Virus record (IMG/VR): IMGVR_UViG_3300027806_000001
Coordinates: 62,001 to 126,000 of that record
Length of the DNA stretch: 64,000 nt
Strand: one strand, 5' to 3'
Source of the DNA: a virus
Positions 3,933-47,812 of the stretch are shown here, one piece after another. The number at the start of each line of letters is the position of its first letter. The stretch's first letter is position 1. The notes under the pieces were generated by a model. That model made no database searches and was not told the DNA's origin. It saw only the letters and a program-made list of their open reading frames with translations. The translations under genes were made by a program, and so were the position numbers.

Positions 3933-4250
3933 TCAGCTTCCTCCTTGGCCGTTGCCGTAGTCGTCGCCGGTGCCGTAGCCTGTGCCCCTGCCGTCGCCAT
4001 AACCCCTGCCGTTGCCCATGCCGTAGCCCTTGCCCCCACCGCAGCCGTTGCCGTTGCTGCCGCCGTTGCCCATGCCGCCGCCCCAGCCCATGCCGCTGCC
4101 GCTATCACAGCTGCCGCCCCAGCCGTAACCTCTGCCGGTGCCTTCGCCGCCGCCAATGCCATTGCCGCTGCCGTAGCCGCTGCCATCGCCGTCGCCGTAG
4201 CCGCTGCCGTTACCCCTATGGATGTCCCTCGTTTTGTCCTTGTAGCTCAT
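3933..4250 (-). CDS. GX-repeat glycine-rich protein 1 (105 aa)
   Basis: After a charged leader (MSYKDKTRDIHR) almost every second residue is glycine and the partners are N, S, Y, D, R, W, M, C, K, T. Period-2 glycine rules out collagen (GXY). The last codons (GQGGS) encode the AAGGAGG site of the next gene, and TGA is followed at once by ATG. First of 22 such genes in the window; function unknown. Confidence 0.85.
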   Translation of the reverse strand: MSYKDKTRDIHRGNGSGYGDGDGSGYGSGNGIGGGEGTGRGYGWGGSCDSGSGMGWGGGMGNGGSNGNGCGGGKGYGMGNGRGYGDGRGTGYGTGDDYGNGQGGS

Positions 4251-4637
4251 TCAATTTCCTCCTTGGCCGTTGCCGTAGCCCGCGCAGGTGCCGTAGCCTG
4301 TGCCCTTGCCCTTGCCGTCGCCTCTGCCGTGGCCGCCGCCGCAGCCGTCGCCGGAGCCGCTGCCGCCGCCGCAGCCGCCGCCGCTGCCATCCCAGCCGCT
4401 GCCCCAGCCGTAACCTCTGCCGGTGCCATCGCCGCGACCAATGCCGTACTTTAAGTTGCCTACACCGTAGCCCCTGCCGTCGCCGTAGCCGCTGTCCTGA
4501 TTGCTGCCCCAGCCTCCTCCTTTGCCGTTGCCGTCTCCGCGACCGGTGCCATTGCCGCAGCTGCCCCGGCCCTCACCTGTGCCGTTGCCGAATCCGGCGC
4601 CGCTGCCACAGCCGTAGCCACTGCCTTTGTCGCTCAT
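4251..4637 (-). CDS. GX-repeat glycine-rich protein 2 (128 aa)
   Basis: Starts MSDKGSGYGCGSG at an ATGA overlap with the upstream gene; a longer reading of the frame is arginine/proline shadow. Contains the block AGFGNGTGEG that recurs in the GX gene at 20278-20625. Ends GQGGN, again encoding the ribosome-binding site of the following GX gene. Cysteines and aromatics (Y, W, F) are spaced through the repeat. Confidence 0.85.
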   Translation of the reverse strand: MSDKGSGYGCGSGAGFGNGTGEGRGSCGNGTGRGDGNGKGGGWGSNQDSGYGDGRGYGVGNLKYGIGRGDGTGRGYGWGSGWDGSGGGCGGGSGSGDGCGGGHGRGDGKGKGTGYGTCAGYGNGQGGN

Positions 4638-4984
4638 TGCATCCTGCCTTTCTTGGCCGTTGCGCAGGCCCGGCACGCCGGTCGGCGCAGTCCCAGCCCC
4701 GCTCCTTCGTACCCGCACTCCGCGCAGACCTTCCTGGACCGTTCGGCGTACGCCCGCAGCAGTCCGGAGACGTCCTCGGGCCGGAACCTGCCGGCCAGGG
4801 CCATCGCCAGGCCGTCGCTGGAGGCGAACACCTGGGTGACCTGGAAATTCTTGCCCAGGATGCCCTTGGTCCGCATCTCGTCCAGCTCGTGCAGCAGGCC
4901 GGACACCAGCGTCGTCCAGCCGGGCGGCACGCGGTACACGGTGTCCCTGTTGATCTCGTAGTCGGGATATCCTCCTCGGGTCAT
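4634..4984 (-). CDS. Hypothetical protein with C-terminal zinc knuckles, 116 aa
   Basis: The N-terminal ~85 residues are a mixed helical domain (LVSGLLHELDEMRTKGILG). The C-terminus has CAECG and CRAC about 17 residues apart, a small zinc ribbon, then a basic tail (ATAKKGRMQ) that carries the ribosome-binding site of the next gene. ATGA overlaps on both sides. Function unknown. Confidence 0.75.
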   Translation of the reverse strand: MTRGGYPDYEINRDTVYRVPPGWTTLVSGLLHELDEMRTKGILGKNFQVTQVFASSDGLAMALAGRFRPEDVSGLLRAYAERSRKVCAECGYEGAGLGLRRPACRACATAKKGRMQ

Positions 4985-5172
4985 CGCACCTCCACGCCGA
5001 CGGCGAGCCGCTTGCGCAGCACGAAGTGCTTGATCTCGAGCAGGGTGCGCCGGCTCACCCCTGGGTGCGGATCGGTGTGGCTGAGGACCAGCAGGAGCAT
5101 GTCCTTGTGGTCCTCGAGCTCTCGCTCCAGGGCGGACACCTCGGCCAGGGCCTGCTCGAGCAGCCCTCTCAG
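4981..5172 (-). CDS. Short coiled-coil protein with probable CTG start, 63 aa
   Basis: The plausible coding part runs RGLLEQALAEVSALERELED... to LRKRLAVGVEVR. No ATG, GTG or TTG lies at its beginning; the best candidate is CTG overlapping the preceding TGA (CTGA), mirroring the ATGA junctions used elsewhere. Upstream parts of the frame are shadow sequence of the neighbouring gene. An internal ATG (MLLLVLSHTD) is the alternative. Confidence 0.5.
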   Translation of the reverse strand: MRGLLEQALAEVSALERELEDHKDMLLLVLSHTDPHPGVSRRTLLEIKHFVLRKRLAVGVEVR

Positions 5173-5675
5173 TATGGCCGCGTCCCCGCGGGGTTGTCCA
5201 GGAGCTGCTCGACGCTCGTCAGGACCGTCTCCATCGCCGTCAGCCAGCCGTGTCCCTCCAGTATCCACCCCGCCCTGTTGAAGAGGGAGGTGCGGCACTC
5301 CGTCCCAAGCCTGCGGATCACCGGCCTGCACCGGTGCTTCAGGTCCGCCTGCGCCGAGTGCTGGCTGATCATGGACAGCCTGTCCAGGGCGGCCAAGGCC
5401 GCGGTCCTCGTCTCCGGCGTGACGCGGGGGGAGGCATGCAGCTTCTCCGCCCGCTCCCTCAGGTCCCGGATCCTGCACGTCGTCCAGTCCATCCTGGTCC
5501 TGGCGACCTTTCTCAGCCCCCGCAACAGCTGCGTCGCCTCCCATACGTCCTCCGGGATGGTCACATGCTCCGTCTGCGTCCCCCGCTCTGGCGACCAGTC
5601 GGTCACCGCCATCGTCGTAAACTCCGGGTCCATGCATGGTTCCTGCCTTTTTCGTTCAAGGTTCAAAGCCTTCAT
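5169..5675 (-). CDS. Hypothetical helical protein, 168 aa
   Basis: Begins MKALNLERKR at a TGATG overlap with GGAGGAG just upstream; a second start, MDPEFTTMAV, 14 codons in, also has an AGGCAGGA site. The body is helical and basic (TQLLRGLRKVARTRMDW, LAALDRLSMISQHSAQ). No known domain. Sits in a run of coupled small genes. Confidence 0.7.
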   Translation of the reverse strand: MKALNLERKRQEPCMDPEFTTMAVTDWSPERGTQTEHVTIPEDVWEATQLLRGLRKVARTRMDWTTCRIRDLRERAEKLHASPRVTPETRTAALAALDRLSMISQHSAQADLKHRCRPVIRRLGTECRTSLFNRAGWILEGHGWLTAMETVLTSVEQLLDNPAGTRPY

Positions 5676-6833: not shown

Positions 6834-6834
6834 G

Positions 6835-7387: not shown

Positions 7388-7472
7388 GGGTTTCTCCTGC
7401 TGCATGTGTTTTTCTCGAACAACGGCCCGTCGATCGCTCCGCTCTGCCGCTCCTGGACCCGGGCAGGTCCGT

Positions 7473-9838: not shown

Positions 9839-10039
9839 CTAGTTCCCGTCGTCGACGGGACAGTCCAGATATTGGTCCAGCGCGTCCTTGATCTGGAGGT
9901 ACAGCGTGTCGCTCCGGGAGCCGACCGGAGGATCGTCCGGCACCAGCCCCTCGAGGACGAGCACGTTGTAAAGCGCGTTCGTCATGCGGTTCCTAATGGC
10001 GATGCGCTCGCGGTTGTTCAGCTTGATCAGATCCTTCAT
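9839..10039 (-). CDS. Hypothetical protein, 66 aa
   Basis: MKDLIKLNNRERIAIRNRMT suggests a helical N-terminus; the C-terminal half is acidic (YLQIKDALDQYLDCPVDDGN). It starts at a short overlap with the GX-repeat gene upstream, whose codons give GGGAGGGG as RBS. Function unknown. Confidence 0.65.
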   Translation of the reverse strand: MKDLIKLNNRERIAIRNRMTNALYNVLVLEGLVPDDPPVGSRSDTLYLQIKDALDQYLDCPVDDGN

Positions 10040-10287
10040 CCCCTCCCCCTGCCGTCGCCGCTGCCCGTGCCGCCGCCAGTGCCGCAGCCGTAACCGCCGC
10101 CGCAGCCGTCGCCCTTGCCGCCCGCCGTCACGCCGCCGGCGTTGCCGCCGCCCATGCCTCTGCCGTTGCCGTTGCCGCTGCCCTCGCCGCTGCCGTAGCC
10201 GCCGCCGGCGTTGCCGTAGCCGTAGCCCATGCCGTAGCCGTCTCCTCTTCCGCTGGCCGTTCCGCTGCCAGGTTGAATGCCGCTCAT
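10036..10287 (-). CDS. GX-repeat glycine-rich protein 3 (83 aa)
   Basis: Head MSGIQPGSGTASGRGDGYG, then GX alternation with a break at NAGGVTAGG. The phrase GSGEGSGNGNGRGMGGG is shared with the GX gene at 44956-45261, 34 kb away. Coupled by ATGA to the 74-aa gene upstream. Function unknown. Confidence 0.83.
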   Translation of the reverse strand: MSGIQPGSGTASGRGDGYGMGYGYGNAGGGYGSGEGSGNGNGRGMGGGNAGGVTAGGKGDGCGGGYGCGTGGGTGSGDGRGRG

Positions 10288-10508
10288 GCAGTCACCTCCT
10301 TGGGCTCTTCCTCGTCCTTGTAGATCTCGACCCTGTACTCCGTGCCCGTCTTCGTGACCTTGGTCGCGACGTCGTTCAGCCAGTCCGCATCCTCCTGCGC
10401 CTTGGCCCTGGAGTCGTAGATGCAGGGCTTGCCGACGCCCTCGTTGAGCAGGCCGCGGTCGTCCTTGTCCTTCATCAGGCGGACGCACCATCTGCGCTTG
10501 GCCTTCAT
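10284..10508 (-). CDS. Hypothetical protein between GX genes, 74 aa
   Basis: An ordinary small alpha/beta protein, MKAKRRWCVRLMKDKDDRGL..., ending EEEPKEVTA whose codons carry the GGAGGTGAC site of the next GX gene. It begins at a TGATG overlap with the GX gene at 10508-10873. It resembles short phage proteins that report on arguments such as IYDSRAKAQEDADWLN (DUF-type), but no family is certain. Confidence 0.7.
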   Translation of the reverse strand: MKAKRRWCVRLMKDKDDRGLLNEGVGKPCIYDSRAKAQEDADWLNDVATKVTKTGTEYRVEIYKDEEEPKEVTA

Positions 10509-10873
10509 CAGTCCCCCCTTCCGGCGCCGTTGCCGAAGCCTTGGCCGCAGCTCATGCCCCAGCCCCTGCCACTGCCGTTGCCGTTGCCGCCACCATAGGC
10601 AGTGCCGCAGCCGTAGCCGCCGCCGCCAGAGCCGACGCTGCAGCCATAATCACCGCCGTGGCCGTTTGCGCTGCCGTGGCCGAAGCCGCCGCCCCTGCCG
10701 CTGCCTTTGCCATCGCCCCAGCCGCTGCCATCGCCATAGCCCCTGCCGTTGCCGCTGCCACAGCCACTGCCGTAGCCATAGCCGGTGCCATCGCCCCAGC
10801 CGCTGCCGTAGCCGTTGCCCCTGCCGTCTCCCATGCCGCTGGCTGTTCCGTTGCTCTGTCGGTTGTCGCTCAT
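10508..10873 (-). CDS. GX-repeat glycine-rich protein 4 (121 aa)
   Basis: Head MSDNRQSNGTASGMGDG. Its N-terminal half (GYGYGSGCGSGNGRGYGDGS and flanks) matches the GX gene at 43996-44319 nearly base for base, except for one 24-bp unit duplicated there. First gene of its unit, just after a GC hairpin. Function unknown. Confidence 0.85.
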   Translation of the reverse strand: MSDNRQSNGTASGMGDGRGNGYGSGWGDGTGYGYGSGCGSGNGRGYGDGSGWGDGKGSGRGGGFGHGSANGHGGDYGCSVGSGGGGYGCGTAYGGGNGNGSGRGWGMSCGQGFGNGAGRGD

Positions 10874-10922
10874 TTCAGTCCTCCTGCGCCCTGCAGGCTT
10901 TCACAGCTAAGCGCAATGGAAA

Positions 10923-10954
10923 GCAGGGGCCCGGGTGCAGGCCCGGGCCCCTGC
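10923..10954 (-). terminator. Strong GC hairpin, probable terminator
   Basis: GCAGGGGCCCGGG and its complement form a 13-bp stem with a short loop; on the minus strand TGCTTTCC follows. The T tract is poor, so termination may be partial and the hairpin could also protect the 3-prime end of the abundant-looking DUF6948 transcript. Confidence 0.6.
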
Positions 10955-10971
10955 CTCCTGGCGAGACGATG

Positions 10972-17819: not shown

Positions 17820-18148
17820 TGCTTCCTGCCTTTCTTCTTGGTCTGCTTGGCCGCATTCTCGCGGCGGTGGATCTCGCTCCATAGACGTGGGCCGCCCGTC
17901 CAGGTCCTGCCCTGGAGCTCGATGTACGCATCCTCGATCAGGGCGGCCAGCTTGGGCGCGTTGCCGGTGAAGGTCTTGGCGTAGAAGTAGCCGTCCCAGT
18001 CGTAAAGAGTCATGCTGGCCGCGGCAATCCTGCGCTCTAGATCCTTGATGCGTTTCTGCGCCTTGAGCAGCTCCGAGGTCGCACACCCGCACGTCGCAGG
18101 CTTGGCCTTGGAGGATCCCGTCTTACGACTCTTTGCCTGCTTGCTCAT
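17816..18148 (-). CDS. Hypothetical protein with basic ends, 110 aa
   Basis: MSKQAKSRKTGSSKAKPATC has a CGC motif, then a coiled coil (LLKAQKRIKDLERRIAAASM) and a mixed domain with YDWDGYFYAKTFTG. Ends KQTKKKGRKQ, the same RBS-encoding tail as its neighbours. ATGA-coupled to the long GX array upstream. Confidence 0.7.
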   Translation of the reverse strand: MSKQAKSRKTGSSKAKPATCGCATSELLKAQKRIKDLERRIAAASMTLYDWDGYFYAKTFTGNAPKLAALIEDAYIELQGRTWTGGPRLWSEIHRRENAAKQTKKKGRKQ

Positions 18149-18447
18149 CCTGCCCCCTTTCCGTTGCCATCGCCATAGCCGTAGCCGCTGACGTAGCCAA
18201 AGCCATAGCCACTGCCGTAGCCGCAGCCTCTGCCGCAGCCGTAGCCTGTGCCATCGCTGCTGCCAGATCCAGTGCCACGGCCGTTGCCCCAGCCGTAGCC
18301 ACTGCCGGTGCCGTGGCCACTGCCCCTGCCATCGCCGAACTCGCCGCCGCACTTGCCGAAGCCTACGCCTCTGCCGGAGCCATCGCCCTCGCCGCAGCCA
18401 CTGCCGCTGCCGTCGCCATTGCAGTACTCGATGTTCTGCGTGCTCAT
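18145..18447 (-). CDS. GX-repeat glycine-rich protein 5 (100 aa)
   Basis: Head MSTQNIEYCNGDG; GX repeat rich in Tyr, Cys, Ser and Arg (CGYGSGYGFGYVSGYGYG). Ends DGNGKGAG, encoding GGAAAGGGGGCAGG plus ATGA for the next gene. Last member of an eight-gene GX array (18145-20696). Function unknown. Confidence 0.86.
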   Translation of the reverse strand: MSTQNIEYCNGDGSGSGCGEGDGSGRGVGFGKCGGEFGDGRGSGHGTGSGYGWGNGRGTGSGSSDGTGYGCGRGCGYGSGYGFGYVSGYGYGDGNGKGAG

Positions 18448-18764
18448 CCTGTCCCCCTTCCGTTGCCATCGCCCTCGCCCCTGCCGTAGCCCCTGCCGTA
18501 GCCTGTGCCGTTGCCCATGCCGCGGCCATAGCCAAAGTCGCCGCCTGCGCCGCCTACTCCGCCACCCACTCCGCTGCCATCGCCCCTGCCGTTACCCCAG
18601 CCTCTGCCGCAGCCGTAGCCTGTGCCATCGCCGTCGCCCCTGCCTTCCGCCCTGCCGCAGCCTGTACCGAGGTATTCGCGGTTGCCATGGCCCCAGCCCC
18701 AGCCGCTGCCGAAGCCTTGGCCGGCAATTGCTCCGCAGCCGTACTCGATCCTCTGCTTGCTCAT
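18444..18764 (-). CDS. GX-repeat glycine-rich protein 6 (106 aa)
   Basis: Head MSKQRIEYGCGAIAGQG, including the phrase NREYLGTG that interrupts the repeat; the following Gly-rich part holds VGGGVGGAGGDFGYG. ATGA overlaps on both sides. Function unknown. Confidence 0.86.
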   Translation of the reverse strand: MSKQRIEYGCGAIAGQGFGSGWGWGHGNREYLGTGCGRAEGRGDGDGTGYGCGRGWGNGRGDGSGVGGGVGGAGGDFGYGRGMGNGTGYGRGYGRGEGDGNGRGTG

Positions 18765-19162
18765 CCTGCCCCCTTTCTGCGGCCATTGCCCCAGCCGCGG
18801 GCCGTGCCGCAACCGTGACCTCTGCCCATGCCGTCGCCGTAGCCGCTGCCCTGGCCGTCTCCAGCAAAGAAGTACGGGCCGCCGCCGGAGCCCTGACCAT
18901 TGGTGTAGCTGGGGCCGAAGAAGCTTGTAGTGCCGTAGCCTGTGCCGTCGCCGCAGCCCTTGCCGTCGCCGTCTCCATAGCCATCGCCGCGGCCATCGCC
19001 ACCAAAGACAAAGCCATGCGCCGAGCCGTGGCCGTAGCCTGTGCCGTCGCCGCAGCCCTTGCCGCTGCCGCTGCCCCAGCCTGCGCCCCAGCCGTCGCCG
19101 TCCGCGTCGCCGCGGCCTGTGCCGAGGCTATTGCAGTTGCCTAAGTTGCGTTTCTTGCTCAT
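18761..19162 (-). CDS. GX-repeat glycine-rich protein 7 (133 aa)
   Basis: Head MSKKRNLGNCNSLGTGRG. Two islands break the repeat: GHGSAHGFVFGGDG and TTSFFGPSYTNGQGSGGGPY. The first lies in a 59-bp stretch (18982-19040) identical to one inside the GX gene at 43583-43999. ATGA-coupled to genes on both sides. Function unknown. Confidence 0.86.
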   Translation of the reverse strand: MSKKRNLGNCNSLGTGRGDADGDGWGAGWGSGSGKGCGDGTGYGHGSAHGFVFGGDGRGDGYGDGDGKGCGDGTGYGTTSFFGPSYTNGQGSGGGPYFFAGDGQGSGYGDGMGRGHGCGTARGWGNGRRKGAG

Positions 19163-19497
19163 CCTGCCCCCTCCCCGTTGCCGGCGCCCAGGGTTGCACC
19201 CCCGCCATTGCCAGTGCCGTTGCCGTTGCCCCTGCCGTTGCCCTGGGCTAAGCCGCCGGTCCAGTTCCGGCCATCGCCGTAGCCATAGCCGCCGCCAGTG
19301 CCGTAGCCGCCGCAGTTGCCGCCGCCGTAGCCGCTGCCACTGCCGTCGCCGTCGCCGCCGTAGCCGGTGCCGCGGCCTTGGCCGCGGCCGCAGCCCTCGC
19401 CGCTGCCGCTGCCCCTGCCCCAGCCTGCGCCCCAGCCGCTGCCGTCGCCATGGCCGGAGGCCGTGCCCTTGCCGTACTCGATGTTCTGCGTGCTCAT
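19159..19497 (-). CDS. GX-repeat glycine-rich protein 8 (112 aa)
   Basis: Head MSTQNIEYGKGTASGHGDG; the repeat includes RNWTGGLAQG and ends GGGATLGAGNGEGAG, a tail nearly shared with the next gene upstream (GETLGAGNGEGTG). Same cassette design with an embedded ribosome-binding site. Function unknown. Confidence 0.86.
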   Translation of the reverse strand: MSTQNIEYGKGTASGHGDGSGWGAGWGRGSGSGEGCGRGQGRGTGYGGDGDGSGSGYGGGNCGGYGTGGGYGYGDGRNWTGGLAQGNGRGNGNGTGNGGGATLGAGNGEGAG

Positions 19498-19856
19498 CCT
19501 GTTCCCTCCCCGTTGCCGGCGCCCAGGGTTTCACCATGGCCGCTGCCACTGCCCATGCCGTTGCCCTTGCCATCGCCCCTGCCGTCGCCGCCGCCGCAGC
19601 CGCTGCCACTGCCCATGCCGTTGCCCTTGCCATCGCCCCTGCCGTCGCCGCCGCCGCAGCCGTTGCCACGGCCTGAGCCGTCGCCACTGCCGTCGCCGAA
19701 CCCGGCGCTGCCGCCGCCGTAGTTGTTGCCATCTCCCCAGCACCGGCCGTAGCCTTGGCTATCGCCGCAGCCTGAGCCGCTGCCGTAGCCCCCGCCTCTG
19801 CCGCAACCGTGGCCGGAGGCCGTGCCGTAGCCGTACTCGATCCTCTGCTTGCTCAT
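19494..19856 (-). CDS. GX-repeat glycine-rich protein 9 (120 aa)
   Basis: Head MSKQRIEYGYGTASGHG. Contains a direct duplication of about 20 residues (GCGGGDGRGDGKGNGMGS twice in tandem), visible as a 60-bp repeat at about 19545-19665. This shows array growth by unequal exchange or slippage. Function unknown. Confidence 0.86.
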   Translation of the reverse strand: MSKQRIEYGYGTASGHGCGRGGGYGSGSGCGDSQGYGRCWGDGNNYGGGSAGFGDGSGDGSGRGNGCGGGDGRGDGKGNGMGSGSGCGGGDGRGDGKGNGMGSGSGHGETLGAGNGEGTG

Positions 19857-20281
19857 CCTGCCCCCTTTCCGTTGCCGTCGCCCATACCTCTCTGAAACCC
19901 GTGGCCATAGCCGCAGCCCCTGCCGTCGCCCTGGCCCCGGCCCCTGACCTGAGCCGACGGGCTACCGTAGGGAAACAGAAGCCCTCCGCAACCGTGACCT
20001 CTGCCCATGCCGTCGCCGTGACCTTGGCCGTAGTCCGGCTGACTGGACTTGACCGTCCTGACCAGAGGCCCGCAACCGTCGCCAGTTCCGTTGCCGTCGC
20101 CGTGGCCACTGCCCCAGGGGGAGTAGCCTTCGTCGCCGCCGTAGCCGTTGCCACAGCCGGCGGTCGACCTGCTCCTGCCGGTGCTCCAGCCCCGGCCTTT
20201 GCCATCGCCTTGGCCTGCGCCATCGCCAAAGCCGCTGCCGCGGCGTGCAAGCGCCTCGGCTGAAAATTCATCGTTGCTCAT
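19853..20281 (-). CDS. GX-repeat glycine-rich protein 10 (142 aa)
   Basis: The most diverged copy: head MSNDEFSAEALARRGSG, with non-GX islands (STGRSRSTAG, GPLVRTVKSSQPDYG, LLFPYGSPSAQVRG). It is still ATGA-coupled with an RBS-encoding GNGKGAG end. The islands could be functional loops or decaying repeat. Function unknown. Confidence 0.82.
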   Translation of the reverse strand: MSNDEFSAEALARRGSGFGDGAGQGDGKGRGWSTGRSRSTAGCGNGYGGDEGYSPWGSGHGDGNGTGDGCGPLVRTVKSSQPDYGQGHGDGMGRGHGCGGLLFPYGSPSAQVRGRGQGDGRGCGYGHGFQRGMGDGNGKGAG

Positions 20282-20625
20282 TTCTTCCCCTTTCCGTTGC
20301 CTCGACCTTGGCCGTTGCCGCTGCCGCAACCATCACCAGAGCCGTTGCCGTTGCCGTCACCGTTAGCGGTTCCGCTGCCGAAACCGAAGCCGCGGCCGTC
20401 GCCCATGCCGCAACAGCAACCACGGCCCATGCCATCGCCGCTGCCGCTGCAATAGCCGGAGCCGCTGCCGTTGCCGCTGCCGATGCCACTGCCGTTGCCA
20501 TAGCCCCAGCCGCTGCCAGTGCCGTTGCCGTAGCCCTCACCTGTGCCGTTGCCGAACCCGGCGCCGCTGCCACTGCCGTAGCCCCTGCCGCTGCCGTCGC
20601 CATAATCGATCCTCTGCGTGCTCAT
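20278..20625 (-). CDS. GX-repeat glycine-rich protein 11 (115 aa)
   Basis: Head MSTQRIDYGDGSGRG; a regular GX repeat with GAGFGNGTGEG (also in the gene at 4251-4637) and GYCSGSG (also in genes at 43583 and 44645). Ends GRGNGKGKK, encoding AAAGGGGAAG for the next start. Function unknown. Confidence 0.86.
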   Translation of the reverse strand: MSTQRIDYGDGSGRGYGSGSGAGFGNGTGEGYGNGTGSGWGYGNGSGIGSGNGSGSGYCSGSGDGMGRGCCCGMGDGRGFGFGSGTANGDGNGNGSGDGCGSGNGQGRGNGKGKK

Positions 20626-20696
20626 CCTGCCCCCTTTCCGTTGCCGTCGCTGCCACCCTGCGCCGAGCCGTGGCCCATGCCGTTGCCTTGAGTCAT
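20622..20696 (-). CDS. Mini GX-repeat protein 12 (24 aa)
   Basis: MTQGNGMGHGSAQGGSDGNG then KGAG and stop. It is flanked by ATGA overlaps on both sides and keeps the family head-to-tail cassette, so it looks like a collapsed or seed copy of the GX gene. The shortest member in the window. Confidence 0.65.
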   Translation of the reverse strand: MTQGNGMGHGSAQGGSDGNGKGAG

Positions 20697-20889: not shown

Positions 20890-20917
20890 ATTCTCACACG
20901 CGCGCCCCCGCTGTTTA
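20890..20917 (-). promoter_or_regulatory. Phage promoter TAAACA-N16-GAGAAT
   Basis: -35 at 20912-20917, -10 at 20890-20895 with TGT before it. The TAA is the helicase stop codon. Drives the zinc-ribbon/GX operon 18145-20827 and probably the genes beyond. Confidence 0.83.
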
Positions 20918-26951: not shown

Positions 26952-26979
26952 ATTCTAACCTGCGAGGTGGGGTTGTTTA
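26952..26979 (-). promoter_or_regulatory. Phage promoter TAAACA-N16-TAGAAT
   Basis: -35 at 26974-26979, -10 TAGAAT at 26952-26957, spacer 16. The TAA is the stop of the gene at 26977-27687. Its downstream product is the tRNA-Arg region and perhaps the helicase operon. Confidence 0.78.
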
Positions 26980-36952: not shown

Positions 36953-37525
36953 TCAACCGCCTGAATTGTTGTTCTCGAACGGACGCCAGTCCCAGTCAAC
37001 CGGACGGTTGCCTTGCTCGTAGTACGGCTTGGGAGCCTCTCCGCCGAACATGGAGTCCCACGCCGTGCGGTTGATGGCCGCATCGGCCACGGCGCCCTGG
37101 TGGACCAGCTGCTCGACCGTTCCCTTGTGCTCGGGACTCTTGCTGAGCGTCTGTGCGGCGGTGCCGTACTGCTCGGGATTGTCGAAGTACTGCGCCTCGT
37201 CTGCAAGGCGCGAGTTGACGAAGTAGCGGCCGCCGAGGCCAAGACCAAGGCCGGCCAGGGCTCCGATGCCTCCAAGGCCCGACTCGCCGCGGCGACGGCC
37301 GCGCAGGCGGTCCAGGATGGAGCCGACGCCGTAGCCCAGCAGGGCGCCGCCGGCGCCGTAGAGCAGGTTGTTGCCCAGGCCGCTGTCGGCTCCGAACGGA
37401 TTGACGAATCCGTGCAGGTCCCTGGCGTTCCACTGGCCAGGCGCAGCCGCAGCGTAGTAGGGCGTGTCCGCCTGCTTGCTCTCGGTTTCGGCCCGCTTCT
37501 GCATGTGGTGGGAGTAGTAGGCCAT
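36953..37525 (-). CDS. Virion-like protein with YYSHH head, 190 aa
   Basis: MAYYSHHMQKRAETESKQAD, then two glycine zippers (LLYGAGGALLGYGVGSILD; GIGALAGLGLGLGGRYFV) and an acidic C-terminus with many Asn (PFENNNSGG). RBS AAGGAAT is present and a TACAAT -10 lies ~35 nt upstream. Inferred virion protein. Confidence 0.76.
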   Translation of the reverse strand: MAYYSHHMQKRAETESKQADTPYYAAAAPGQWNARDLHGFVNPFGADSGLGNNLLYGAGGALLGYGVGSILDRLRGRRRGESGLGGIGALAGLGLGLGGRYFVNSRLADEAQYFDNPEQYGTAAQTLSKSPEHKGTVEQLVHQGAVADAAINRTAWDSMFGGEAPKPYYEQGNRPVDWDWRPFENNNSGG

Positions 37526-39860: not shown

Positions 39861-39861
39861 G

Positions 39862-41769
39862 TCAGTTGGTCCTCGTGGCGTAGTTCCCGTAGGGGGACCG
39901 GCCCTGGTCAGGTGGTCCAAGGACGGCCTGCAGCAGGGCGGGATCGTTCAGCAGCATCGTCATCGTGGCCGGATCGACCGCCTGGCTCAGCCTTCTGGAG
40001 GCATCGACGGTAGGCGCAGGGGACTGCAGAGCTTCCTCCCGGCTCCTGTACCAGTTGGCCAGGGTCTGGTAGGCCTGGGGATCGGAAGCGGCCAGCTCGC
40101 CAAGTTCCGCCTGGGTGCGGGAGTTCTCCGGAATCGCTCCGTAGATCGAGTCCCTGAGTTCCGGACTGACCCTCTGCAGCACATCCATGACGGCCTGCGG
40201 CGACTGGCCCAGGCCCACCAGCCTCTGGGTCAGTTCGGAGCCCAGGCCCTGCCGGTTCAAGGCTGCCTGCTCGCGGTCGAACTCGGCCCTGGCCTTGCGC
40301 TGGGAGTAGGTCTCGAGCCCCTTGAACGGAGCCGAGGCCTCCATGGCGCCGGTGGCCAGGCGGACAAATGCGTTGTCCGGAATGTCCTGCTCGAGCTGAG
40401 AGCGGATCACGTCGAGTTCCTTGGTGTCGGGATAGCTGACGTTGCCGTACTGATCCACGGGAACCCCCTGTTCGGTCGCGGATCGCAGCACATTCTCCCG
40501 GAGAGGGGCTTTGGAGAGAAGGGAGGCGGGAATGGTAAAGGCCTGCGCGGTGTTCGGGAGGCCGGTCATGCGCTGGGCCGGACCCACGGCGAGCTCCCTT
40601 GCGACTTCGCCAAAGGACGCGTTCGGATTGTCGCCCAGCAGCTCGCCTGCCGAGGAGAGGCCTGCCTCCGCACCCTGGGCGAAGTTGCCCAACCCCCAGC
40701 CGCGGCCCAGGGATCCTAAGGCGAACTGCGTCAGTTGACCCGGCACCGTCGCCGTCGCCCCGGAGCCGGAGAGGACTGCCGGAGCCATCCTGGAGCCGGA
40801 GATGGACCAGAGGGGATTGAGCGCGCTGCCGAAGGCGTTGAAGACTCCCTTGGCCCCTTGTTCACCGAACCCTGCAACCGTGCGCAAGGCGCCGGGGGAG
40901 AGCTTGGAGGAGAACTGAGGCAAGGCGAACGCCCCCTCGTACAAAGCCTTGGGGACGACCCTGCCTGCGGAGCTGACCGCCTGGCCTGCCCGGGCGACGA
41001 CCGGAGCCACCTTGGCCGGCACCGCGGACATGATTTTGCCTCCGGCGGCGGTGACGAGGTTGCCTGCCCGGGATGCCAAAGAGGGCAGCACCGCCTTGGT
41101 TGCTCCGGCTCTGCCGGCGTTGGCGACAAGGGCGGCGTTTCCCTGCCCGCCGGTGGCTGCCGCGGTCAGGGCGTGGGCTCCTGTAGCAAGTGAGGTGCCT
41201 GCCCAGTTCTGCAAGGAATTACGCGCGAGCACGGGATCCCGCTCCATGGCGTCGTACATCAGGAAGGAGTTGACGCCCGCCTTGCCTGCGTCGGGCAGGT
41301 ATTTGGTGTAGTAGGCGCCCTGATCCTCCAGGCCTTCCTGGACGGCCTGCTGGTTGTCTGTCATGTAGTTGTAGGCGATGCCTGGCCAGCTCATGTTCCA
41401 CGCCGCGCTGGCGTACGGCTGCACGGTGTCCCGCCAGAACTCCCTTGGCCTCGCGTTCCTGACGTAGGCCGGAGGCAGCAGGTCCTCCTCGGTCATCCTG
41501 CGGCCCATGATCGGAACGACCGCCGGCACGGCCTGACGACCAGGCTGATCGTAGATGCCGCCGGCGGCCCGGGAGCTGGACGCGGCGCCGGGCCGCGGCT
41601 CAGGCAGGGACGCCCCCACCGGTTCCGGTTGCCGAGTCCTTGCGTTCGACTGGACGCGGCCTGCCGGCGACATCATGCCCATCAGGTTCTGGTTCTGGAT
41701 GCTCTCCAGGGAGTTGCCGGGACCTGGGCCCTGCGCTGACTTGACGTGATGGTCGTATGGCTTGGGCAT
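39862..41769 (-). CDS. Large virion-like protein with PYDHHVK head, 635 aa
   Basis: MPKPYDHHVKSAQGPGPGNS, almost the same head as the 169-aa protein next to the polymerase. A Pro/Arg/Ser-rich region (1-100) is followed by long Ala/Gly/Val-rich parts (AGTSLATGAHALTAAATGGQ; AGNLVTAAGGKIMSAVPAKV) and a charged helical C-terminus (ETYSQRKARAEFDREQAALN). First gene of the leftward virion block; its leader has a TACAAT box and CAGGACC RBS. Candidate internal virion/ejection protein. Confidence 0.74.
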   Translation of the reverse strand: MPKPYDHHVKSAQGPGPGNSLESIQNQNLMGMMSPAGRVQSNARTRQPEPVGASLPEPRPGAASSSRAAGGIYDQPGRQAVPAVVPIMGRRMTEEDLLPPAYVRNARPREFWRDTVQPYASAAWNMSWPGIAYNYMTDNQQAVQEGLEDQGAYYTKYLPDAGKAGVNSFLMYDAMERDPVLARNSLQNWAGTSLATGAHALTAAATGGQGNAALVANAGRAGATKAVLPSLASRAGNLVTAAGGKIMSAVPAKVAPVVARAGQAVSSAGRVVPKALYEGAFALPQFSSKLSPGALRTVAGFGEQGAKGVFNAFGSALNPLWSISGSRMAPAVLSGSGATATVPGQLTQFALGSLGRGWGLGNFAQGAEAGLSSAGELLGDNPNASFGEVARELAVGPAQRMTGLPNTAQAFTIPASLLSKAPLRENVLRSATEQGVPVDQYGNVSYPDTKELDVIRSQLEQDIPDNAFVRLATGAMEASAPFKGLETYSQRKARAEFDREQAALNRQGLGSELTQRLVGLGQSPQAVMDVLQRVSPELRDSIYGAIPENSRTQAELGELAASDPQAYQTLANWYRSREEALQSPAPTVDASRRLSQAVDPATMTMLLNDPALLQAVLGPPDQGRSPYGNYATRTN

Positions 41770-41877: not shown

Positions 41878-42591
41878 ATGAACACGCGCGTCGACTACAG
41901 CCCCCTTCGCCAACATCTCATGGAGAAGACGGCCTTCCTGGGCGATCTGCTTGGATCAAGCAAGTACGAGCCGCAGATTCTGGAGGACGTACCGTCGATT
42001 GACGACTTCGATCCTATGACCCAGGACTACGAGCAGGCCCTGGACAAATACTGGAAGAGCCTGGGCTACTCGGACGTGCGGCGGCACGACTACGCCCCAT
42101 CAGGAACTCCGTACACCATGAAGGGCCCCGACGGCCGCTACTACGAGGCCGCCATGAACGAGGACCTGGGCAAGTGGGAGCTGACTCCCATGGGCGGTCC
42201 TCAGCACGACATGGCCGAGCACCCCGACGATCTGCCGGATACCTACAACCGCAAGGGTCCGAGCCTGGGCAGGGACAAGAACTCCATGGACTACAGCCTC
42301 CTTCGCCAGCACCTCATGGAGAAGATCGCAGCCTCTCCGGCCTGGACCAGGGCCGAGGGCAAGAACCCCGAGGGCGGCCTCAACGCCAAGGGCCGGGCCA
42401 GCTACAAGGCGCAGACGGGCGGCACCCTGCGTCCGCCGGTCACCAAGGATCGCGCCGACAAGAGCCCCAAGGACGCCAAGCGCCGGGCCAGCTTCTGCGC
42501 TCGAAGCGCAGGCCAGATGAAGATGTGGCCGGAGGCCGCCAAGGATCCGGAGAGTAGGCTCAGGAAGGCCCGCCGGGCCTGGGACTGCTGA
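41878..42591 (+). CDS. DUF6321-like protein with duplicated head motif, 237 aa
   Basis: Only plus-strand virion-area gene. Two copies of a head motif: VDYSPLRQHLMEKTAF at residue 5 and MDYSLLRQHLMEKIAA near 138. The C-terminal part (AEGKNPEGGLNAKGRASYKA, KRRASFCARSAGQMKMW, SRLRKARRAWDC) matches DUF6321, found in phage and marine viral proteins. An internal ATG before the second motif could yield a separate ~100-aa product. Ends before a bidirectional terminator. Leaderless start. Confidence 0.75.
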   Translation: MNTRVDYSPLRQHLMEKTAFLGDLLGSSKYEPQILEDVPSIDDFDPMTQDYEQALDKYWKSLGYSDVRRHDYAPSGTPYTMKGPDGRYYEAAMNEDLGKWELTPMGGPQHDMAEHPDDLPDTYNRKGPSLGRDKNSMDYSLLRQHLMEKIAASPAWTRAEGKNPEGGLNAKGRASYKAQTGGTLRPPVTKDRADKSPKDAKRRASFCARSAGQMKMWPEAAKDPESRLRKARRAWDC

Positions 42592-42671: not shown

Positions 42672-42959
42672 TCATTCGGAGACTCCTTTGCCGTCGCCGC
42701 GGCCGCTGCCACCGCCCATGCCGCTGCCGCAGACGCTGCCGTAGCCCCAGCCTCTGCCATTGCCGTCGCCGCGGCCGCTGCCACCGCCCATGCCGCTGCC
42801 GCAGACGCTGCCGTAGCCCCAGCCTGTGCCGCTGCCATCGCCGCCGCCGCTGCCGCCGCTGCTGTGGTCCCAGCCTCTGCCGTCGCCGTTGCCTCTGCCG
42901 TTGCCGCCGCCCTTGCCCCTGCCATCGCCATCACCGTGGCCATTACCTGGGTTGCTCAT
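42672..42959 (-). CDS. GX-repeat glycine-rich protein 13 (95 aa)
   Basis: Head MSNPGNGHGDGDG. Carries an internal duplication (GWGYGSVCGSGMGGGSGRGD twice). Last copy of the second large GX array; after it the frame ends VSE with an ATGA into a 4-codon ORF and then the terminator. Function unknown. Confidence 0.86.
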   Translation of the reverse strand: MSNPGNGHGDGDGRGKGGGNGRGNGDGRGWDHSSGGSGGGDGSGTGWGYGSVCGSGMGGGSGRGDGNGRGWGYGSVCGSGMGGGSGRGDGKGVSE

Positions 42960-43240
42960 GATGAACCTCCTTCGCCGTTGCCACTGCCGTTGCCATCGCC
43001 GCTGCCGGCGCCGTCGCCGTAGCCCCTGCCGTTGCCGTAACCTTTGCCGTTGCCCCGGCCTTCGCCATCGCCGCCGCCGTTGCCGCTGCCCCAGCCTGTG
43101 CCGTGGCCGCAGCCTGTGCCGCGGCCTATGCCGTAGCCCATGCCGCTGCCCTCGCCGTCACCCGAGCCGCTGCTCCAGCCCTTGCCGTCCCCCATGCCGT
43201 TGCCCTCGCCCTCGCCATGGCCATTACCTGGGTTGCTCAT
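42956..43240 (-). CDS. GX-repeat glycine-rich protein 14 (94 aa)
   Basis: Head MSNPGNGHGEGEGNGMGDG, then a regular GX repeat with no interruptions longer than one residue. Ends GEGGSS, encoding GAAGGAGGTTCATC plus ATGA for the next gene. Function unknown. Confidence 0.86.
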   Translation of the reverse strand: MSNPGNGHGEGEGNGMGDGKGWSSGSGDGEGSGMGYGIGRGTGCGHGTGWGSGNGGGDGEGRGNGKGYGNGRGYGDGAGSGDGNGSGNGEGGSS

Positions 43241-43586
43241 TCGAAACCTCCTTCGGCATCCTCGAGTAGATCGGCTCGCGCAGCCTGAGGATGTAGTGGT
43301 CGCCCTCGCTCTGAGGCCCGACCTCCACGTCTATCATGGCCGCCTGCACCAGGTCGCACATCAGGGGGTGCACGTCCCTGAGGCGCAGCCTGAACATACC
43401 GGCCACGTCGCGCAGCTGGACGCCCGCCGGCCCCGCGGCCGACACCAGGGCCATCACGGCCTTCCTGCGGTCCGCCGAGCGCAGCAGCCGCCGGCCGGGG
43501 CCTGCCGCCTTGCGCCGGACCCTGTGCCGCTCGGCAAGCTGCTCGGCAAGCATGCGGAGCCTCGTGTCGATCGCCGGACCGCTCAT
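43224..43586 (-). CDS. Winged-helix-like protein inside a GX array, 120 aa
   Basis: Not glycine-rich. A basic N-terminal helix (LAERHRVRRKAAGPGRRLLR) is followed by a winged-helix-like unit (AVMALVSAAGPAGVQLRDVA, DLVQAAMIDVEVGPQ, HYILRLREP). The C-terminus (MPKEVSNEQPR) reads 17 nt into the next GX gene, set by its ribosome-binding site. The only ordinary protein in this array; a possible DNA-binding regulator. Confidence 0.72.
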   Translation of the reverse strand: MSGPAIDTRLRMLAEQLAERHRVRRKAAGPGRRLLRSADRRKAVMALVSAAGPAGVQLRDVAGMFRLRLRDVHPLMCDLVQAAMIDVEVGPQSEGDHYILRLREPIYSRMPKEVSNEQPR

Positions 43587-43999
43587 GCCGAGCCTCCTTT
43601 GCCGTTGCCCTTGCCGTTGCCGTAACCTTTGCCGTCGCCCCGGCCTTCGCCATCGCCGCGGCCATCGCCACCAAAGACAAAGCCATGCGCCGAGCCGTGG
43701 CCGTAGCCTTTGCCGTTGCCGTAGCCCCTGCCGCTACCGCTGCCATAGCCGCGGCCGTAACCCCTGCCGTTGCCGCTGCCGTCGCCATCACCGTGGCCCT
43801 CGCCGAAGCCGCTGCCGAGTCCATTGCCTGCGTTGCCATGGCCGCCGCCGTCACCCGTGCCATCGCCCCAGCCGCTGCCGTAGCCATGGCCGTCGCCCAT
43901 GCCGCTGCCGCGGCCGCTGCCTTCACCGCTGCCGCTGCAATAGCCGGAGCCGCTGCCGTTGCCCTCGCCGCTGCCGTTGCCGTTACCTGGGTTGCTCAT
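43583..43999 (-). CDS. GX-repeat glycine-rich protein 16 (138 aa)
   Basis: Head MSNPGNGNGSGEGNGSGSG. Contains GHGSAHGFVFGGDGRGDG on a 59-bp segment (43650-43708) identical to one in the GX gene 25 kb away at 18761-19162, plus HGNAGNGLGSGFG shared with the next gene. Longest GX copy in this array. Function unknown. Confidence 0.87.
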   Translation of the reverse strand: MSNPGNGNGSGEGNGSGSGYCSGSGEGSGRGSGMGDGHGYGSGWGDGTGDGGGHGNAGNGLGSGFGEGHGDGDGSGNGRGYGRGYGSGSGRGYGNGKGYGHGSAHGFVFGGDGRGDGEGRGDGKGYGNGKGNGKGGSA

Positions 44000-44319
44000 T
44001 CGGAACCTCCTTTGCCGTTGCCCACGCCGCTGACGCTGCCGAAGCCGCTGCCGAGTCCATTGCCTGCGTTGCCATGGCCGCTGCCGTAGCCCCCGCCGTC
44101 ACCCGTGCCATCGCCCCAGCCGCTGCCGCTGCCTTTGCCATCGCCCCAGCCGCTGCCATCGCCATAGCCCCTGCCGTTGCCGCTGCCATAGCCCCTGCCG
44201 TTGCCGCTGCCACAGCCACTGCCGTAGCCATAGCCGGTGCCATCGCCCCAGCCGCTGCCGTAGCCGTTGCCCCTGCCACAACCGTGGCCGTTGCCGTTGC
44301 CACTACCTGGGTCGCTCAT
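43996..44319 (-). CDS. GX-repeat glycine-rich protein 17 (107 aa)
   Basis: Head MSDPGSGNGNGHGCG. About 44127-44276 matches 10699-10824 in the GX gene at 10508, but with one extra 24-bp unit (GSGNGRGY repeated). Shares HGNAGNGLGSGFG with its neighbour. Function unknown. Confidence 0.87.
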   Translation of the reverse strand: MSDPGSGNGNGHGCGRGNGYGSGWGDGTGYGYGSGCGSGNGRGYGSGNGRGYGDGSGWGDGKGSGSGWGDGTGDGGGYGSGHGNAGNGLGSGFGSVSGVGNGKGGSE

Positions 44320-44648
44320 TCGGAACCTCCTTTGCCGTTGCCCCATCCGTAGCCGGTGCCCCATCCGTAGCCGGTGCCCCAGCCGCTGCCATCGCCGCTG
44401 CCGTTACCCCAGCCGGTGCCGTAGCCATAGCCGGTGCCATCGCCCCAGCCGATGCCATGGCCGTAGCCGTCGCCGCTGCCGTCGCCGTTGCCCCAGCCGT
44501 TGCCGCTGCCCGTGCCGCCGCCGTCGTTTTGGCCAAAACCGCCGCCGAAGCCCCTGCCGTCGCCATCGCCCCTGCCGCTGCCGTAGCCGCTGCCGCAGCC
44601 ATGGCCGCGGCCGCTGCCCTCACCCTGGCCGTTACCTGGGTTGCTCAT
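44316..44648 (-). CDS. GX-repeat glycine-rich protein 18 (110 aa)
   Basis: Head MSNPGNGQGEGSGRG. Unusually rich in Trp and Tyr toward the end (WGTGYGWGTGYGWGNG), encoded by three near-perfect 18-bp repeats at 44340-44385. Contains GFGGGFGQNDG, shared with the next gene. Function unknown. Confidence 0.86.
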   Translation of the reverse strand: MSNPGNGQGEGSGRGHGCGSGYGSGRGDGDGRGFGGGFGQNDGGGTGSGNGWGNGDGSGDGYGHGIGWGDGTGYGYGTGWGNGSGDGSGWGTGYGWGTGYGWGNGKGGSE

Positions 44649-44959
44649 TCGGAGCCTCCCTTGCCGTTGCCCATGCCGCCGCCAGTGCCGCAGCCGTAGC
44701 CGCCGCCGTCTCCTCTTCCGCCGCATTTGCCAAAGCCATGGCCGGTGCCGTCACCGAAGCCCTTACCTCTGCCGAAGCCCTTACCGTTGCCCCAGCCGCT
44801 GCCTTTGCCATCGCCCCAGCCGTAGCCGTCAGCGCTGCCCATGCCGCGGCCGCCGCCGTAGCCGCTGCAATAGCCGGAGCCGCTGCCGTCGTTTTGGCCA
44901 AAACCGCCGCCGAAGCCCCTGCCGCTGCCGTTGCCATTGCCACTACCTGGGTCGCTCAT
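44645..44959 (-). CDS. GX-repeat glycine-rich protein 19 (104 aa)
   Basis: Head MSDPGSGNGNGSGRGFGGGF, with QNDGSGSGYCSGYGG and Lys/Phe-rich KGFGRGKGFGDG. Shares blocks with GX proteins 11, 16 and 18. ATGA-coupled on both sides. Function unknown. Confidence 0.86.
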   Translation of the reverse strand: MSDPGSGNGNGSGRGFGGGFGQNDGSGSGYCSGYGGGRGMGSADGYGWGDGKGSGWGNGKGFGRGKGFGDGTGHGFGKCGGRGDGGGYGCGTGGGMGNGKGGSE

Positions 44960-45261
44960 TCGGAGCCTCCTTTGCCGTTGCCACTGCCGTCGCCGATGCC
45001 GTAGCCCTCGCCGAAGCCCTTGCCATTGCAGTAGCCCCAGCCGAAGCCCCAGCCACTGCCATCGCCGTAGCCTCTGCCGAAGCCATCGCCGCCGCCGCTG
45101 CCGCGGCCGTTGCCGAGGCCCTCGCCGTTGCCGCTGCCGCCGCCCATGCCTCTGCCGTTGCCGTTGCCGCTGCCCTCGCCGCTGCCGCTGCCCATGCCTC
45201 CGCCCCTGCCGTTGCCGTCGCCATCACCCTGGCCGCTACCTTGTAAGTAGTTACCCATCAT
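44956..45261 (-). CDS. GX-repeat glycine-rich protein 20 (101 aa)
   Basis: Head MMGNYLQGSGQGDGDGNG, different from the MSNPGNG heads, as expected for the first copy of the array. Contains NGNGRGMGGGSGNGEG, close to the GX gene at 10036. Overlaps the TM gene upstream by 11 nt. Function unknown. Confidence 0.85.
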   Translation of the reverse strand: MMGNYLQGSGQGDGDGNGRGGGMGSGSGEGSGNGNGRGMGGGSGNGEGLGNGRGSGGGDGFGRGYGDGSGWGFGWGYCNGKGFGEGYGIGDGSGNGKGGSE

Positions 45262-45463
45262 GCCTCCTCATGTGCCGAGCGTTGAGGAAGAGCAGGGCCA
45301 GCACCCAGATAACCGAGGCCAGACAGGCGGCCACCCACACGACGGTGACCCATCCGGGACTGTTGGCGCCGTCAGCCTTGAGGACCAGGTTGGTCAGGAG
45401 CCCACTCCCTGTGAGAACAAGGCACGACCGCGCCCAAATGTATTCGTACTTTCTGGTTTTCAT
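45251..45463 (-). CDS. Two-TM membrane protein, 70 aa
   Basis: Head MKTRKYEYIWARS, two hydrophobic segments (CLVLTGSGLLTNLVL, ~14-29; VTVVWVAACLASVIWVLALL, ~39-59) and a basic tail HMRRHDG. It precedes the GX array. Function unknown. Confidence 0.68.
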   Translation of the reverse strand: MKTRKYEYIWARSCLVLTGSGLLTNLVLKADGANSPGWVTVVWVAACLASVIWVLALLFLNARHMRRHDG

Positions 45464-46571: not shown

Positions 46572-46885
46572 TTGTCCTCCTTGGTTTGCTGTTTCTTAAA
46601 CAGGTGGTTCCAGCCTCTTTCGGCGGCGACACCTTCGGGCGTGTTCACTTCGTGTCCGGTTTCGTACCGCCGCATTGCATCGTCGTAGCAAATATCCTCC
46701 TGAGCCTCGTCGCGCTGCTCGATCGCGGCGGCAAGTTCGGCGCGGAGGTGTTCTACCTCGCGCATTCCCTGCCGCAGCATGTCGCCCTCACGGCTGTTGG
46801 GCCATGCGTAGGTTCCATCCGTCTGCGCATATGCGTGGTGCAGATTCAGGAGGAAAATCGACCCTGTCTGCTTGCCGTTGCTCAT
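46568..46885 (-). CDS. KEDR-tail family protein A, 105 aa
   Basis: Coiled-coil middle (LRAELAAAIEQRDEAQEDI) and C-terminus RGWNHLFKKQQTKEDK, matching the tails of two genes further upstream (GWGYLYNEQETKEDR; GWGYLYNQREAKEDR). The KEDR/K end is forced by AAGGAGGACA ribosome-binding sites, but the GWxxLY part is real homology. Function unknown. Confidence 0.72.
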   Translation of the reverse strand: MSNGKQTGSIFLLNLHHAYAQTDGTYAWPNSREGDMLRQGMREVEHLRAELAAAIEQRDEAQEDICYDDAMRRYETGHEVNTPEGVAAERGWNHLFKKQQTKEDK

Positions 46886-47190
46886 TCGGAACCTCCCTGG
46901 CCGTTGCCAAAGCCGAAGCGATAGCCATGGCCATAGCCATGGCCAACGCCATTGCCATGGTCGCCACCATAGGCGAGGCCGTAGCCGCAGCCATGGCCGC
47001 TGCCCCAGCCCCTGCCGTTTCCGCTGCCGCGACCAATGCCGTGACCAAAACCGTTGCCCTTGCCCTCGCCGTAACCCTCGGCATTGCCGCCGCCGTAGCC
47101 GCGGCGCCTGCCATCGCCGCTGCCTTGCGCAGTGCCGCCGCCGTAGCCGCTGCCGTCGCCGAAACCGGGGTCATTACTCGGGTTGCTCAT
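46882..47190 (-). CDS. GX-repeat glycine-rich protein 21 (102 aa)
   Basis: Head MSNPSNDPGFGDGSGYGGG. Includes GDGRRRGYGGGNAEGYGEG and a Tyr/His/Phe-rich end (GHGYGHGYRFGFG). Coupled to the KEDR-tail gene after it (GQGGSE encodes CAGGGAGGTTCCGA). Function unknown. Confidence 0.86.
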   Translation of the reverse strand: MSNPSNDPGFGDGSGYGGGTAQGSGDGRRRGYGGGNAEGYGEGKGNGFGHGIGRGSGNGRGWGSGHGCGYGLAYGGDHGNGVGHGYGHGYRFGFGNGQGGSE

Positions 47191-47498
47191 TAGGAACCTC
47201 CTTTGCCATTGCCCATGCCATTGCCCATGCCGCTGCCATAGCTGCTGCCGCTGCCATCGCCGTTGCCCTCGCCGTATCCATCGCCACTGCTACGGCCACG
47301 GCCGTGGCCGTAGCCCCCGCCGTTGCCGCAGCCGTTGCCTTCACCTTCGCCGTGGCCTCGGCCGTAGCCGCCTCCGCTGACATTACCATGGCCACTACCC
47401 CTGCCATCTCCAAAGCCGCCGCCGTTGCCCCTGCCCATGCCGTTGCCCCTGCCGTCACCACCACCATCGCCCCTACCTGGGTTGCCCGGGTTGCTCAT
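47190..47498 (-). CDS. GX-repeat glycine-rich protein 22 (102 aa)
   Basis: Head MSNPGNPGRGDGGGDGRG. Here the stop is TAA sharing one base with the following ATG (TAATG), a slight variation of the ATGA cassette. Gly/Arg/Asp-rich with NVSGGGYGRGHG. Function unknown. Confidence 0.86.
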   Translation of the reverse strand: MSNPGNPGRGDGGGDGRGNGMGRGNGGGFGDGRGSGHGNVSGGGYGRGHGEGEGNGCGNGGGYGHGRGRSSGDGYGEGNGDGSGSSYGSGMGNGMGNGKGGS

Positions 47499-47812
47499 TC
47501 GGAACCTCCTTTGCCGTTGCCGTAGCCATTACCCCGGCCATCGCCGTAGCCCCTGCCATCGCCGTGGCCTACGCCTATGCCTGCACCGTAGCCCTGACCG
47601 TAACCGCTGCCATTGCCGCTGCCACTGCCCCAGCCACCGCCATCGCAGCCCCTGACGATGCCATCGCCGCAGCCACTGCCGTTGCCATTGCCCTGGCCAT
47701 CGCCCCGGCCGTAGCCCCTGCCACCGCCCCAGCCGCCACCTGAGCCGCCTGCGCTGCCCTCGCCACAGCCTCGACCGTTGCCATTACCTTGGCCATTACC
47801 TGGGTTGCTCAT
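47495..47812 (-). CDS. GX-repeat glycine-rich protein 23 (105 aa)
   Basis: Head MSNPGNGQGNGNGRGCGEG, with one interruption DGIVRGCDGGGWG. First copy of the three-gene GX run; its start lies inside the end of the 240-aa gene upstream, which supplies GGAGGACAG as RBS. (This is the 22nd family gene; number 15 in the series is the non-GX gene at 43224.) Function unknown. Confidence 0.86.
   Translation of the reverse strand: MSNPGNGQGNGNGRGCGEGSAGGSGGGWGGGRGYGRGDGQGNGNGSGCGDGIVRGCDGGGWGSGSGNGSGYGQGYGAGIGVGHGDGRGYGDGRGNGYGNGKGGSE

Follow-up and report, generated by a model that had tools for sequence, protein, structure and literature searches.

Glycine-rich sequence of low complexity is known from several kinds of protein. 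SmD1, SmB and LSm4 carry GR/RGG low-complexity tails, FUS-type low-complexity domains are built on [G/S]Y[G/S], and alternating glycine is found in the (GX)n glycine-rich cell-wall proteins of plants and in silk fibroin. The viral DNA analyzed here (the window: 64,000 bases, 62001-126000 of the 183,468-base IMG/VR virus record IMGVR_UViG_3300027806_000001, read in all six frames) encodes on its minus strand 22 short proteins, of 24-142 aa and in five arrays, in which glycine alternates with a varied second residue; they are called GX proteins below. The reading favored here, at a probability of about 0.5, is that these 22 genes represent an extremely expanded form of a cassette widespread in phages, in which DUF6948, a protein of predicted Sm-like fold, is paired with one or more GX proteins that may serve as a ribonucleoprotein scaffold. 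Like the Sm/LSm/Hfq proteins (SmD1, SmB and LSm4), the cassette combines a predicted Sm-like barrel with a glycine-alternating low-complexity partner, apparently sometimes fused to it. Unlike in those three proteins, however, the phage "tail" is usually a separate gene, is hypervariable, and has mostly Y, S, D or N rather than R at X. The palette of G, S, Y, D, N and R and the spacer-and-sticker appearance recall FUS-type domains, although the phage proteins have a strict period of two. Alternating glycine is shared with plant (GX)n proteins and silk, but the phage proteins lack a hydrophobic signal-peptide head, their X is not mainly Ala or Ser, and they lie in early-gene surroundings.

An earlier note on this DNA, made from the letters alone, had placed 22 such genes in five arrays, and six-frame reading finds them all at those positions. 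Every one has an ATG and a purine-rich Shine-Dalgarno (SD)-like site upstream, and most are chained to the next by an ATGA overlap. One gene inside array 4 (43224-43586), within the range given in the note, is not GX. Within arrays, the conserved tail of each gene, NGKGGSE and a stop codon, also contains the SD of the next (for example AAAGGAGG), with GGC AAA GGA GGT TCC GAA TGA read as GKGGSE and stop. This double use explains why the tail is conserved, and the arrangement points to translational coupling of the genes in an array. Together with the use of different codons for GX residues in relatives, the ATGs, SD sites and ATGA coupling indicate that the frames are genes. The possibilities raised in the note, of frames without homologues elsewhere or of opposite-strand shadows without conserved heads, are not what is found: the genes are real, and homologues occur elsewhere.

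Glycine makes up 45.6% of the 2,347 residues of the 22 proteins, and 73% of residue triplets are in strict G-X alternation, compared with 25% after shuffling within each protein. At the nucleotide level, 16 GG dinucleotides follow one another at even spacing 152 times in the window and 0 times in dinucleotide shuffles. The residues flanked by two glycines are chiefly S (14%), N (12%), D (12%), Y (10%) and R (10%), followed in order by G, T, W, C, K, H, E, M and F; L, I and V together account for about 2%, and P does not occur, which agrees with the scarcity of these four residues described previously. The distinctions drawn in the note from better-known repeats also hold, since the glycine period is two and not three as in collagen and GxxG antifreeze proteins, and X is not mainly Ala (1.8%) or Ser (14%) as in silk. 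Net charges of the 22 proteins range from -5 to +2, a spread below that of random residue assignment (P 0.00045, which is only indicative because blocks are common to several copies). No array comparable to these is present in the remaining 119 kb of the record.

The single DUF6948 gene of the window (PF22253; 10972..11439, minus strand; E 8.3e-22, 77.6 bits against a cut-off of 27, positions 2-85 of 85) lies directly upstream of GX gene 4 in array 2, on the same strand and with 98 nt between. The pairing recurs far beyond this virus. When viral contigs were searched with a pattern of 13 GGY codons, each one codon apart (the GX-only pattern), at least 71 loci with GX tracts of varied X were recovered, at 23-74% GC, and in approximately 40-50 of the 71 the open reading frame (ORF) that stops at the GX start or shortly ahead of it is DUF6948-like. 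Five of ten proteins scanned, the window's included, pass the PF22253 cut-off, and one more matches weakly. In the other direction, a search of viral contigs with a DUF6948 alignment gave at least 575 matching loci; among the best 80, which were analyzed, a GX frame is directly downstream in 77, and 44 of 47 retain it after thinning at 78% identity. Fused forms probably exist as well, since the PHROG 18306 profile matches GX tracts and DUF6948 at different positions. In two gut contigs, a short GX tract is fused to another domain. Named phages with the pair include Iodobacter phage PhiPLPE, Taid and its relatives (Pectobacterium phages of the Ymer genus), Dickeya phage Setonix, Vibrio phage IKEMa6-1, Caudoviricetes MW202898 and, apparently, Chlorobiaceae phage CV-1-33. 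That the cassette and its DUF6948 partner are real is nearly certain. Existing annotation of the GX gene in these phages is uneven: it is absent for PhiPLPE (L287, 1161-1409), reads "hypothetical protein" for Taid, and is in an apparently shifted frame (MAMALAMA...) for CV-1-33 (L290, 2798-3043).

The earlier note considered the GX proteins a new phage family. They are indeed real, unnamed and multi-copy, but they are not confined to this phage, as GX tracts occur in 145 viral loci of 23-74% GC. Over the 166 tracts from these loci, X is Ser in 33%, Tyr in 31%, Asp in 20% and Asn in 5%. The content of Y, S and D is independent of GC across the 145 loci (rho approximately 0), whereas the third-position G+C of X codons tracks locus GC, from 0.35 in low-GC to 0.97 in high-GC loci; the pattern is therefore maintained by selection on the protein. 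Multi-gene arrays are present in other contigs, with four genes in L030 and five each in L097 and L023. The array 3 heads of the window (MSKQRIEYG) resemble heads adjacent to DUF6948 elsewhere (MSKLIKPEKYG, MSKLNKPMEYG). A pattern search for the tail plus SD found one close relative of the window, the locus L143/L277. In bacterial genomes, a pattern scan returned mostly simple repeats (YGYG, CGCG, GSGS); two of the diverse GX genes among the matches, L222 and L229, are downstream of diverged DUF6948-like ORFs. A search of 297 genomes from the phylum to which L222 belongs gave no DUF6948, but controls also gave no match, so that this absence is unproven. A tblastn search of named phages with a GX protein gave no match, probably because masking removes GX sequence, and the helicase at 20915-22864 and a DNA polymerase, used as baits, gave no relatives extending to the arrays. 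Profile matches of the GX proteins in Pfam, PHROG and NCBIfam (TrAA12, ser_rich_anae_1) are weak, composition-driven and, in all but one case, below cut-off, and were rejected as low-complexity.

Where close relatives can be compared, the GX gene changes rapidly between stable neighbors. Across eight phages of Pectobacterium/Dickeya, the DUF6948 gene keeps a length of 399 nt, with 88-100% nucleotide identity, and the 711-nt downstream gene is identical in the six compared for it, yet the GX gene varies from 162 to 270 nt and differs in the order of its residues. Ymer and Amona have identical DUF6948 (399 nt) and 711-nt downstream genes, but GX genes of 222 and 204 nt with different bodies, while the head MSKLIKPExYG is constant. 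Similar turnover is seen at the close relative of the window: L143/L277 has five GX genes and arrays 4 and 5 have ten, in aligned DNA that is mostly 86-96% identical. At the site of GX gene 14 (array 4; 42956..43240, minus strand; 94 aa), the body has been replaced relative to L143: 37 of the 48 X columns differ, against 5 of the 46 G columns. GX gene 20 (array 5; 46882..47190, minus strand; 102 aa) has a true orthologue in L143 at 10352-10660, and in all three changes that touch a glycine the window has another residue where L143 keeps the grid. The dN/dS of this pair is 0.79, and values for neighboring small genes are 0.24-0.82. Exact blocks of 34-93 nt are common to different GX genes of the window, some of them 33 kb apart; the blocks are always in frame, and the GX phase is kept in all but one case. 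As judged from these sequences, selection acts on amino acid make-up and on the glycine grid and not on exact sequence.

The AlphaFold model of DUF6948, from 66 sequences, has a mean pLDDT of 85.5, with most of residues 61-155 above 94, and consists of five strands plus helices. The 50 best matches in the PDB are all Sm/LSm-type proteins or assemblies, mostly with a probability of 0.97-1.00; archaeal Sm proteins reach a TM score by target of 0.69, and the list also includes chain C of NatC, which we take to be the LSm-like Naa38. Some of the viral structural neighbors bear the names Sm-like and Hfq-like. When PDB sequences were searched with a DUF6948 profile, no Sm protein appeared at E values up to 10. 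An Sm/LSm-like fold is nonetheless likely on the strength of the model, and a protein with this predicted fold probably binds RNA. For 20 GX paralogues, in contrast to DUF6948, AlphaFold gives no fold (pLDDT 29.6 throughout), a result that fits, but does not prove, a disordered protein.

The surroundings of the pair are those of an early or replication region for the most part. In a survey of 116 ORFs beside DUF6948 loci, the commonest recognized neighbors are DnaB helicase, primase, replication initiators, ParB, Sak4, RecT and UvsX, and no head or tail family is among the 25 neighbor families listed. RecE, Bet, Erf, SSB and XerD are nearby in named phages. Phages of the Ymer genus also have, next to the pair, a tail fibre gene on the opposite strand. 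The pairing across phages, the fixed heads with a fast-changing GX body, and the replication/recombination surroundings can be regarded as established from sequence comparison.

The GX protein may, then, be a disordered polymer that tolerates changes of sequence and whose function depends on its format: flexible glycine spacers alternating with polar and aromatic residues. Glycine would provide flexibility, and the aromatic and polar residues would make weak multivalent contacts. Together with Sm-like DUF6948, GX could act as a ribonucleoprotein scaffold or condensate early in infection. This role is the best of several guesses and a tentative one. The condensate suggested in the earlier note survives in this more specific form, which depends on the predicted Sm-like partner that the note had missed. 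A virion fibre is not supported, and neither is the ice binding that the note proposed. GX bodies may change by in-phase slippage and by recombination between hexanucleotide units (GGC NNC), events that keep both frame and phase and would make diversity and copy number cheap, and copy number itself might serve as dosage or as a mixture. A broader and more doubtful extrapolation is that many phages encode a kit for ribonucleoprotein granules, consisting of an Sm-like RNA binder and a hypervariable, sequence-free GX polymer that forms condensates early, here with 22 polymers.

Several observations weigh against the cassette and scaffold reading. The best PDB match of the DUF6948 model has an E value of 3.5e-3 and none is below 0.001, so that the Sm assignment depends on consistency across the 50 matches. 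AlphaFold is weak on low-complexity sequence, and a beta or polyglycine-II structure of GX could have escaped it. In the window, one DUF6948 gene, the sole copy found in the 183-kb record, accompanies 22 GX genes; arrays 1, 3, 4 and 5 have none of their own and are far from that copy. Even at array 2, the two genes are separated by a G+C-rich hairpin-like sequence (GGGGCCCGGGCC..ACCCGGGCCCC; 10905..10957, minus strand), possibly an attenuator, which lies past the DUF6948 stop and ahead of GX gene 4. The window palette, with N, R, W, K, C, E, H and M, is wider than the usual Y, S and D, and its proteins are richer in R, K, W, N and C. Linkage may be overstated for the family as a whole, since the DUF6948 seed came from GX-bearing loci, and in a 119-kb AT-rich phage contig (L023, G002) with at least five GX genes no DUF6948 was detected.

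The same variability could be read differently, with diversity itself as the function: GX would face a host sensor or defence and be varied in copy number, order and length for escape or as a decoy, with DUF6948 as a constant effector or chaperone. The extreme local divergence of GX beside constant neighbors, the differences in copy number between strains and the in-frame exchange of blocks between copies are all compatible with this. So are the contig ends at the 80 DUF6948 loci: 15 contigs stop inside the GX tract, within 230 nt downstream, and 1 stops as close upstream, the pattern that a tract difficult to assemble would give. Repeat slippage alone would yield equal variation if only the format were constrained, however, unrelated phages share one narrow X palette, and no defence gene was recognized nearby (the PADLOC library was not searched); we consider this explanation unlikely. 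It is very improbable that the arrays are a selfish or neutral repeat expansion at the DNA level with incidental translation. Hexanucleotide units and duplications within and between GX genes would suit such an expansion, but the same amino acids are specified by different codons across 23-74% GC, heads and tails are fixed, SD sites and ATGA coupling are present, the partner DUF6948 is conserved, and charge is balanced. Residues that vary at set positions, with constant sequence on either side, might also suggest targets of a diversity-generating retroelement; this idea is largely refuted, as the 183-kb record has no reverse transcriptase domain (PF00078), GX length varies, and the bodies are rearranged blocks and not point-mutated templates.

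Two points speak for a structural polymer, whether a silk-like beta sheet, a polyglycine-II bundle or a virion-associated fibre: under strict G-X alternation, the side chains of a strand all lie on the same face, and glycine columns are much better conserved than X columns at the gene 14 site. Such a polymer is harder to reconcile with recognized neighbors that mostly serve replication, recombination and partition, with heads that lack a hydrophobic signal peptide, with an AlphaFold model in which nothing is ordered, and with tight pairing to a predicted RNA-binding fold, and it appears quite unlikely. The Sm-like cassette with a scaffolding GX partner thus remains the preferred reading.

Neither DUF6948 (PF22253), to which the window gene belongs, nor PHROG 18306 has a described function, although both exist as database entries. 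In the phage papers searched (mainly open literature, with few subscription journals), DUF6948 and GX motif strings are absent, and in the main text of the Ymer genus paper (PMC11445585) the words "glycine" and "hypervariable" do not occur. No description of the pair, of its hypervariability, of the predicted Sm-like fold or of the 22-fold expansion was found within that literature, and all four appear to be new. The pair occurs in hundreds of phage contigs, and also in phages in culture, but has apparently gone undescribed. It provides a natural case of conserved format and composition with unconstrained sequence, and is relevant to the function and evolution of disordered proteins. If DUF6948 is an Sm protein, phages may carry RNA-granule machinery of their own, and cultured carriers such as the Ymer genus and PhiPLPE make the cassette testable now.

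All GX genes of the window are on the minus strand. Array 1 comprises gene 1 (3933..4250; 105 aa, head MSYKDKTRDIHRG) and gene 2 (4251..4637; 128 aa). In array 2, gene 3 (10036..10287; 83 aa) has an exact 53-nt block in common with gene 19, and gene 4 (10508..10873; 121 aa) has exact blocks of 93 and 66 nt in common with gene 16, 33 kb away. Array 3 comprises gene 5 (18145..18447; 100 aa, head MSTQNIEY), gene 6 (18444..18764, with its ATG at 18764; 106 aa, MSKQRIEYG), gene 7 (18761..19162; 133 aa, with an exact 61-nt block common to gene 15), gene 8 (19159..19497; 112 aa, MSTQNIEYG), gene 9 (19494..19856; 120 aa, MSKQRIEYG, with an exact 64-nt duplication inside), gene 10 (19853..20281; 142 aa, the least regular), gene 11 (20278..20625; 115 aa, MSTQRIDYG) and gene 12 (20622..20696; 24 aa). 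In array 4, gene 13 (42672..42959; 95 aa, with a 66-nt duplication inside) and gene 14 are followed, beyond the non-GX gene, by gene 15 (43583..43999; 138 aa), gene 16 (43996..44319; 107 aa), gene 17 (44316..44648; 110 aa, unfolded in its AlphaFold model), gene 18 (44645..44959; 104 aa) and gene 19 (44956..45261; 101 aa). Array 5 consists of gene 20, gene 21 (47190..47498; 102 aa) and gene 22 (47495..47812; 105 aa).

GX sequence is joined to other domains at several loci. Beside DUF6948 in L042, L104, L107, L118, L292 and L293, it is fused to a domain with FAHGETL...LTGSCxxGRxxF motifs, which Pfam does not recognize in the four members scanned. A second, different C-terminal domain, also conserved (GTLHAT..P..W..ER.W.VAL.GEV), is fused to GX in L058 (3799-4452) and L103 (2-739), with 40% identity between these two. 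A further subgroup (L080, L082, L084, L090, L109 and similar) has heads ending in PVG or PIG and, frequently, basic tails (RTRRR, HRNRR). The protein encoded upstream as its partner (AVVVVDRGWIFAGDV...) belongs to a diverged family, of which the L090 member, scanned by Pfam, has no DUF6948 match. In L023, the gene upstream of GX (185-715) is RNaseH-like (PF04308).

Two features of the window lie outside the GX arrays. A plus-strand gene at 41878-42591 is situated amid minus-strand genes, and its L143 version is about 130 codons shorter in the middle. In one block of minus-strand genes (26977-27687, 28179-28628, 29273-29782, 36953-37525 and 39862-41769), five otherwise different proteins have a common N-terminal motif of Tyr plus His-His or His-Pro (MSYYFHHLPGYK, MAYYSHPLPRTK, MTRPYSHHVKSS, MAYYSHHMQKRA, MPKPYDHHVKSA), possibly a common targeting or cleavage tag.

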